Program-made: the position numbers and the translations under genes | Notes under the pieces: generated by a model | Seen by the model: only the letters and a program-made list of their open reading frames with translations | What the model was told of the DNA's origin: nothing | Databases searched by the model: none | Assembly: GCA_017537365.1 (NCBI GenBank) | Contig: JAFYKZ010000002.1 | Coordinates: 1-64,000 of the forward strand | From: Clostridia bacterium | GTDB taxonomy: Bacteria > Bacillota > Clostridia > Oscillospirales > Acutalibacteraceae | Direction of reading: 5' to 3' | DNA length: 64,000 nt | In this document: piece after piece, positions 43,568-44,966 of the stretch | Numbering within the stretch: position 1 is the first letter of the stretch | How the letters are laid out: each line of letters opens with the position of its first letter

Positions 43568-43717
43568 ATGAGAGTTAAAATTACTCTGGCTTGTACAGAA
43601 TGCAAGCAACGCAATTACAACACAATGAAAAACAAGAAAAACGATCCGGACAGGCTTGAAATGAACAAGTATTGTAGGTTCTGCAAGAAGCACACTGTAC
43701 ACAAGGAAACAAAGTAG
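43568..43717 (+). CDS. rpmG: 50S ribosomal protein L33 (bL33)
   Basis: A 49-aa bL33 starting [17 protein letters not shown] and ending HKETK. Two CxxC pairs (C9/C12 and C36/C39) make it the zinc-binding C+ form. GGGAGGTG sits just before the ATG. It heads the secE-nusG operon as in most Firmicutes. Confidence 0.96.
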
Positions 43718-43727
43718 GAGGTAAAGT

Positions 43728-44423
43728 ATGAAAGCTGTTAATAATATTTGTCGCTATGCGGCAATCGTTTTCGGTTTAGCCTCACTTTTGCTTTTCTTTG
43801 CGGATTTTGCCACTATTATAACAAGTGGCGGTCAAGCAACTGCTGTTGCTGCTCAGTATGCTTTTGGTAGCAAAATTGCTATTGGAGAGACAACATTTGA
43901 TTTAGCAAGATCAACCCATCTTCAATTATGCTTCTGGTTAACAGCAGCATCGGTTGTATCAAGCTTCTTAACAATCAAATATAAGAAGGCTCGCTTTGCA
44001 GCTTCGGGCTTAGGAATTGCAACTAGTATTTATATGTTGGTTGTAGCTCTTTCAGCTCCTGAGAAGTTTATTGACTTCCGTCCTGTTACTAACATCACCG
44101 ATATAACTCATACTCCTTTTGTTTGGGTATTGTTTGGTGTTTTAGTTGGTTTCACCGCTCTGTCAATCGCTCATTTACTTATTGACGATTATCTTGAAGT
44201 GTTAGCTTCAAATGGCGAAAAGAGAACCATTTGGCAGCATATTGTTCACTTTGTAAGAGATTATAAGAGTGAAGTTAAGAAAATCGTTTGGCCAAATTAT
44301 AAGGATGTTATGAAGAATACTTTCATCGTTCTTATTATGTGCTTATTAGTAGGTCTTTTGATTTGGGGCGTAGATTTCGGTCTTGTTAAACTTCTTGACC
44401 TTATCTTAGGTATTAATTCCTAA
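43728..44423 (+). CDS. secE: SecE with a four-helix N-terminal extension
   Basis: A 231-aa protein. The last 60 residues are canonical SecE (FVRDYKSEVKKIVWPNYKDV near 175-194, then one membrane helix at about 197-218), the clamp subunit of the SecYEG translocon. The first 165 residues form an extra region with four hydrophobic helices at about 9-32, 66-83, 90-109 and 129-152. Single-helix SecE of about 60 aa is usual in Firmicutes; E. coli has three helices. There is no stop or frameshift between the parts. The extension lacks a family I can name. Confidence 0.88.
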   Translation: MKAVNNICRYAAIVFGLASLLLFFADFATIITSGGQATAVAAQYAFGSKIAIGETTFDLARSTHLQLCFWLTAASVVSSFLTIKYKKARFAASGLGIATSIYMLVVALSAPEKFIDFRPVTNITDITHTPFVWVLFGVLVGFTALSIAHLLIDDYLEVLASNGEKRTIWQHIVHFVRDYKSEVKKIVWPNYKDVMKNTFIVLIMCLLVGLLIWGVDFGLVKLLDLILGINS

Positions 44424-44435
44424 GGAGGAATATAA

Positions 44436-44966
44436 ATGTCTGAAACAACAGAAGCTAGATGGTATGTTGTCCATACCTATTCGGGATATGAAAATAAGGT
44501 AGCAAGCGACCTTGCAACAATGGTTGAAAGCCGCGGTATGCAGGACCTTATTCAAGAAATCAGAATCCCAACCGAAATAGTTACAGAAATCAAGGAAGAC
44601 AAAAAGCGTGAGGTTGAACGCAAAATATTCCCCGGTTATGTTATGATTAAAATGATTGTAACAGATGATAGCTGGTATGTTGTAAGAAACATTCGCGGCT
44701 GCACCGGATTTGTTGGACCGGCTTCTAAGCCCGTTCCGCTAACAGATGAAGAGGTCGCTAACCTAGGCGTTGAAAAGCACAGCGTTGAAGTGGGTTACAG
44801 CGAGGGTGATAATGTTAAAATTATCAGCGGTCCTCTTGAAGGCTATTCAGGTACTGTTAAAACGGTTGATACCGCTAATAACAATGTTTGCGTAGTTCTT
44901 TCTATGTTTGGCAGAGAGACACCTGTTGAGTTAGAGCTCGACCAGATTTCTTTGGCAGACGATTAA
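44436..44966 (+). CDS. nusG: transcription termination/antitermination protein NusG
   Basis: NusG (176 aa) couples RNA polymerase to Rho or the ribosome. The NGN domain begins RWYVVHTYSGYE and contains FPGYVMIKM near 69 and RNIRGCTGFVG near 85. The C-terminal KOW domain has GDNVKIISGPLEGYSG near 125. GGAGG precedes the start, 12 bases after secE. Confidence 0.97.
   Translation: MSETTEARWYVVHTYSGYENKVASDLATMVESRGMQDLIQEIRIPTEIVTEIKEDKKREVERKIFPGYVMIKMIVTDDSWYVVRNIRGCTGFVGPASKPVPLTDEEVANLGVEKHSVEVGYSEGDNVKIISGPLEGYSGTVKTVDTANNNVCVVLSMFGRETPVELELDQISLADD

Follow-up and report, generated by a model that had tools for sequence, protein, structure and literature searches.

A predicted claudin-fold-like membrane domain fused to SecE in one branch of gut Clostridia

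The secE gene in the stretch of Clostridia bacterium DNA analysed here (64,000 nucleotides, hereafter the window) encodes a SecE protein with an N-terminal domain of about 165 residues (the N-domain). On balance, we favour the view that this protein is the sole SecE of the cell, that it derives from one ancestral fusion with a four-helix domain of claudin fold, and that this domain is a 1:1 auxiliary subunit beside SecY which stabilises or tunes SecYEG. SecE is a small, essential clamp of the protein-export channel and is among the most conserved and minimal of membrane proteins. The fused form is typical of one large branch of uncultured gut Clostridia, where an entire folded membrane domain has been gained clade-wide, apparently from a single origin, which changes the composition of the translocon. 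An earlier note on this DNA had missed two things, namely the claudin/TARP-type fold of the N-domain and the fact that the N-domain defines a clade.

The gene lies on the forward strand, begins with ATG and reads through 231 amino acids with no internal stop. Its features and neighbours, by position in the window, are as follows.

43568 to 43717, forward: rpmG (50S ribosomal protein L33), an open reading frame; the first neighbour 5' of secE, kept 5' in fused loci
43716 to 43721, forward: Shine-Dalgarno sequence AGGAGG of the fused secE, read from the sequence; similar sites precede the same ATG in related loci
43728 to 44423, forward: secE, fused form, 231 aa, from the open reading frame and SecE profile matches
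43728 to 44222, forward: N-terminal claudin-fold-like domain, residues 1-165, predicted from AlphaFold2 and fold matches
44175 to 44231, forward: cytosolic end of TM4 and linker, residues 150-168, with a DD.[LI]EV motif, from conservation
44229 to 44282, forward: SecE amphipathic helix, residues 168-185, within which DYKSEVKKIVWP starts, from predicted secondary structure and invariant residues
44247 to 44408, forward: SecE domain PF00584, with the C-terminal membrane helix that clamps SecY, from the profile match
44436 to 44966, forward: nusG, an open reading frame; the 3' neighbour of secE, with the nusG start also 3' in fused loci

The AGGAGG sits 6 bases 5' of the ATG at 43728 and overlaps the rpmG stop codon (TAG, 43715-43717), and nusG starts 12 bp past the secE stop. 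In all 30 fused loci inspected secE follows rpmG, and a recognisable nusG start comes next in 29 of them, the readout being unclear in one. The distance from rpmG to secE is mostly 10-82 bp for nearly every secE, fused or plain. The earlier note had described a single uninterrupted fusion frame of 231 aa, four extra hydrophobic helices ahead of SecE and an otherwise normal rpmG-secE-nusG operon position. Each of these descriptions was borne out, by the open frame with SecE models over its C-terminal part, by hydropathy and by the open reading frames, whose order is kept in fused loci, respectively.

Two SecE models matched the C-terminal part of the protein, PF00584 over residues 174-227 (E 3.8e-18; 65.6 bits versus a cut-off of 22.7) and TIGR00964 (E 1.2e-16; 60.4 bits versus a cut-off of 27.55), together covering residues 172-227. 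NCBIfam models of longer SecE (the PRK05740 set) gave below-cut-off matches that fell mostly on the SecE core, and no Pfam or NCBIfam model matched when residues 1-166 were searched alone. The motif KSEVKKIVWP, a putative SecY interface, is conserved. The window genome (98% complete) contains one copy of SecE, that adjoining nusG. Hydropathy analysis gave five membrane segments, four of them N-terminal to the SecE part, a number outside the range of one to three membrane helices known for SecE (PMC4632601). This count makes the fused protein a variant form, and its identity as SecE stands.

As the earlier note had proposed, the structure of residues 1-165 was predicted alone. AlphaFold2 with 80 homologues returned a claudin/TARP-type fold (pLDDT 92.1, pTM 0.83), with predicted helices at residues 2-24, 63-81, 88-108 and 131-160 and outer strands at 26-32, 35-40, 49-52, 55-58 and 123-128. 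Four of the strands lie between helices 1 and 2 and the fifth between helices 3 and 4. The full-length protein (20 homologues, pLDDT 80.6) was modelled with the same fold, its SecE part being of low confidence (pLDDT 54-67 for residues 161-190 and 50-66 for residues 221-231). A review of PMP22 describes the claudin fold as a bundle of four helices to which loop 1 contributes four strands and loop 2 a fifth; both termini are cytosolic, and a disulfide in loop 1 links strands 3 and 4 (PMC13307082).

The top Foldseek matches to the predicted N-domain were TARPs, with claudins, MP20 and the Cav1.1 complex within the best 50; the E value was modest at best (2.6e-3), the probability reached 1.00 and the TM-score to TARP gamma8 (7oca_I) was 0.68/0.62. 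VIA-align gave Z scores of 12.1 for a TARP chain (141 residues, 3.1 A), 11.5 for claudin-15 and 11.0 for the designed claudin fold CLF_4, although Z scores of 11-12 can be reached by helical bundles by chance, an unrelated four-helix bundle (1yo7_A) scoring 11.6. The N-domain is thereby predicted to have a claudin/TARP/PMP22-type arrangement, for which TARPs are the nearest among solved structures. A profile search of PDB sequences detected no sequence homology to claudins or TARPs. Among the 25 Pfam families listed for the 80 members none was of claudin type, and the loop-1 disulfide is not conserved, two or more cysteines within residues 25-62 being found in only 1/80 sequences. Since sequence homology was not detectable and the disulfide is missing, we name the domain claudin-fold-like rather than claudin.

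We also considered whether the N-domain belongs to DUF4293 (PF14126). Weak matches were obtained in 31/80 homologues, the displayed stretches being co-linear over about residues 11-150, with a best E value of 5.2e-6 in one of the 80, but this model also weakly matches many long unrelated frames. The best of the members individually shown (L061) reached 24.8 bits against a cut-off of 27, none of 150 family genomes had a match over the cut-off and the window sequence had no match. Membership is thus weakly indicated and was not accepted.

To what extent the fused form is shared was analysed by searching related genomes, a check that the earlier note had suggested; the fused form proved to be conserved. 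In the search of 60 related genomes, about 30 species belonging to the genus of the window yielded full-length fused proteins (40-60% identity), and in the other families of the order the match was limited to the SecE part. Same-genus matches were partial in G036 (residues 1-104) and G010 (residues 1-24) and weak in G014, and the same search gave no match in two further genomes of the genus, G018 (77% complete) and G034 (91% complete). Scanning 84,980 GTDB species with the N-domain only gave 61 loci. In 60 of the 61 the N-domain continues straight into SecE; in the other (L075) the contig ends just past the linker, before the SecE motif. These loci are labelled Clostridia, Clostridiaceae, Ruminococcaceae or Oscillospiraceae; wherever a title states the source, it is nearly always a gut or rumen metagenome. 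The domain was present in 26/135 genera of the family sample (150 genomes). Strong matches in the order sample (295 genomes) came from the genus of the window and one further genus of the family, and matches in the class sample (391 genomes) were confined to the genus of the window, plus one chance motif match (G479). This last (L282, from another family of the class) was examined as a candidate stand-alone domain and rejected, the motif lying inside a PucR-like regulator frame. No stand-alone copy was found in the GTDB, family, order or class scans, which detect motif-keeping copies and could let very divergent free copies escape.

Sister genera have a plain one-helix SecE. A tree built from concatenated NusG, RplK and RplA puts the 26 fused rows on one side of a branch with an SH-aLRT of 95.5 (a quick tree without bootstrap). 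Two changes had been needed in a first tree, where an outgroup row stood beside L180, a partial row of the fused group covering 32% of columns; once three poor rows were removed, one change sufficed for the fused group. The grouping of the fused rows in one clade therefore suggests a single origin, and the fusion may, on these sequence trees, have arisen once. A literature search of open-licence papers found no earlier report of this fusion or of other extended or multi-helix SecE in Firmicutes.

The remaining SecE proteins of the family are mostly one helix behind a charged N-terminal tail. In many plain SecE of the family the core is preceded or followed by a long charged tail, the whole protein reaching about 115-190 aa (L198, L199, L201, L218, L220, L234, L251, L258 and others). 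An N-terminal extension of another kind, about 96 residues long with two membrane helices and the sequence MI[LF]WGF..., was observed in L228 (G353), L235 (G350), L242 (G434) and L276 (G384). These four genera fall in a small, separate clade within the same family; plain SecE occurs in that clade too, and a tree uniting the four was not rejected (p-AU 0.743). L271/L280 (G050) and L281 (G073), from another family of the order, encode SecE with a four-helix N-terminal extension that is comparably laid out, with a long loop 1 and a short loop 2; it was rejected as a homologue of the window N-domain because hhalign gave no signal (probability 0.2%). In a further SecE frame of 183 aa, L272 (G055), whose GTG start is uncertain, SecE is preceded by a beginning that resembles a signal peptide, by an acidic segment of low complexity and by a second membrane helix. 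As the two- and four-helix extensions are unrelated and occur in the same order, membrane modules were probably added to SecE more than once, which suggests that SecE is a repeated site for such addition in these gut bacteria.

SecG is present in the window genome and in nearly all of the family, and the 11 genomes without it include both fused and plain forms. Equally, SecDF, YidC and YajC are present in 22/22 genomes tested. Replacement of a lost Sec partner by the N-domain is ruled out, since the fused genomes tested have kept SecG, SecDF, YidC and YajC; the N-domain therefore adds to the translocon and replaces none of these. G410 and G413 each gave one SecD/SecF-type match with a weak score, unlike most tested genomes, which may reflect assembly gaps.

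Conservation within the N-domain is uneven. It is high in the cytosolic N-terminus (3.1 bits), TM1 (3.0), the TM4-linker (2.9) and the inner loop (2.7), and falls to 2.2 and 2.1 bits in the two outer loops, where most insertions occur. Conservation peaks at the cytosolic end of TM1, in the K/R-rich inner loop and in the TM4-linker, adjoining SecE; conserved residues in the outer loops include F46-G47, S62 and D116. Conservation at the cytosolic side above that of the variable outer loops makes an interface with SecY/SecE likelier than a specific outside ligand. By this sequence pattern, the conserved surface of the N-domain more likely packs on SecE/SecY near the cytosolic face than binds one ligand outside. 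An even number of helices with K/R-rich inner ends would let the SecE part keep its normal orientation.

Judged from its codons, the N-domain is under purifying selection, with a dN/dS of roughly 0.05-0.25 in close pairs (dN/dS of 0.008/0.147 for the window versus L032 and 0.012/0.361 for L040 versus L044), and its sequence diverges more quickly than that of the SecE part (mean pairwise identity 56% versus 72%). The conservation of the fused form excludes chance. That the assemblies are mostly metagenome bins could favour an assembly or annotation artefact, but this is refuted by conservation of the frame across genomes, the same frame recurring in dozens of independently assembled genomes from different species with dN well below dS, and we give it practically no credence. 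The earlier note had allowed that relatives might carry a separate upstream gene, or that translation might begin only near residue 165 from a ribosome site of its own. No separate upstream gene was seen in the loci examined, rpmG directly preceding nearly every secE, and no internal start with a ribosome site ahead of SecE is shared among the 61 loci. It is accordingly very improbable that two polypeptides are made, a short SecE by internal start or cleavage plus a free four-helix protein. The window does have one GTG 22 codons before the SecE motif, but it lacks a Shine-Dalgarno sequence; an internal start with an SD-like site within the 34 codons before the motif occurs in 2/61 loci and an ATG in the region before the motif in 12/61. 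The linker, moreover, would lie on the cytosolic side, beyond the reach of signal peptidase.

We think it unlikely that the N-domain has a job of its own, such as adhesion or the sensing of lipids or the envelope, and is joined to SecE only to be co-expressed or localised with it, leaving export unaffected. Such a role would agree with the faster evolution of the N-domain, with the sister genera that do without it and with the single-helix SecE that works in B. subtilis (PMC12445088, PMC3087755), yet the N-domain was never seen without SecE in the collections searched, and the cytosolic side by SecE is more conserved than the outer loops. It is likewise improbable that the N-domain is a membrane spacer or stabiliser that does little specific work, in effect an enlarged form of the two-helix hairpin in E. 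coli SecE, maintained by drift or because it keeps SecY stable. SecE is known with one to three helices (PMC4632601), some SecE have been noted to gain a hairpin (PMC8675477) and separate membrane extensions occur elsewhere in the order (two-helix and four-helix, above), all of which this explanation would accommodate; a full sheet-bearing fold under strong purifying selection, with F46-G47, S62 and D116 conserved in the outer loops, points to more than a hairpin.

The reading we favour, an auxiliary subunit beside SecY, would work as follows. The chain would start in the cytosol, cross the membrane in four helices and return the C-terminus of the domain to the cytosol, from where the usual amphipathic helix and tilted helix of SecE would clamp SecY. 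Each SecYEG would then have one auxiliary subunit, which would pack within the membrane against the edge of SecY on its SecE side. Its action may resemble that of TARPs on AMPA receptors, to which they bind laterally (PMC13307082), by lateral packing with the outer beta-sheet near the channel mouth, an analogy limited to fold and position. SecYE could be stabilised as a result, or opening and partner access tuned. The earlier note suggested that the extra domain could dock on SecYEG or modulate export, and this is plausible. More tentatively, and as a possibility we would not lean on, the fusion may be a protein-conducting channel with a built-in TARP-like regulator, in which the claudin-fold part of SecE beside SecY tunes stability, gating or partner access, convergent with the auxiliary subunits of animal ion channels. 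Being covalently attached, the domain would form an auxiliary subunit in a natural 1:1 ratio, and simple truncation in a heterologous SecYEG could probe what it contributes to gating, stability or partner recruitment.

Compared with the SecE of B. subtilis, which has one helix and functions as a single-helix protein (PMC12445088, PMC3087755), the fused form has in common the C-terminal SecE domain (PF00584/TIGR00964), the invariant K-S-E-x-K-K-I-V-W-P, the rpmG-secE-nusG operon and a single copy, but has 165 more residues, with four membrane helices and a predicted outer beta-sheet. The SecE of E. coli has three helices (PMC5766551) and, like the fused form, adds an even number of helices at the N-terminus with the orientation of the SecE part kept; there, however, the addition is a two-helix hairpin, whereas the fused form has four helices and a folded outer sheet, with no detectable sequence relation between the two. 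With LetA of the E. coli LetAB lipid transport complex there is a structurally similar region (9n8w_A, Z 10.2, 141 residues, 3.9 A), a likeness of helical arrangement near the noise range; LetA is a larger transporter and sequence similarity was not shown. The predicted four-helix bundle, with both termini inside and 4+1 strand loops, is common to the N-domain and to TARPs and claudins. In contrast to these, the N-domain is bacterial, is about 5-13% identical in structural alignments and is covalently fused to a channel subunit.
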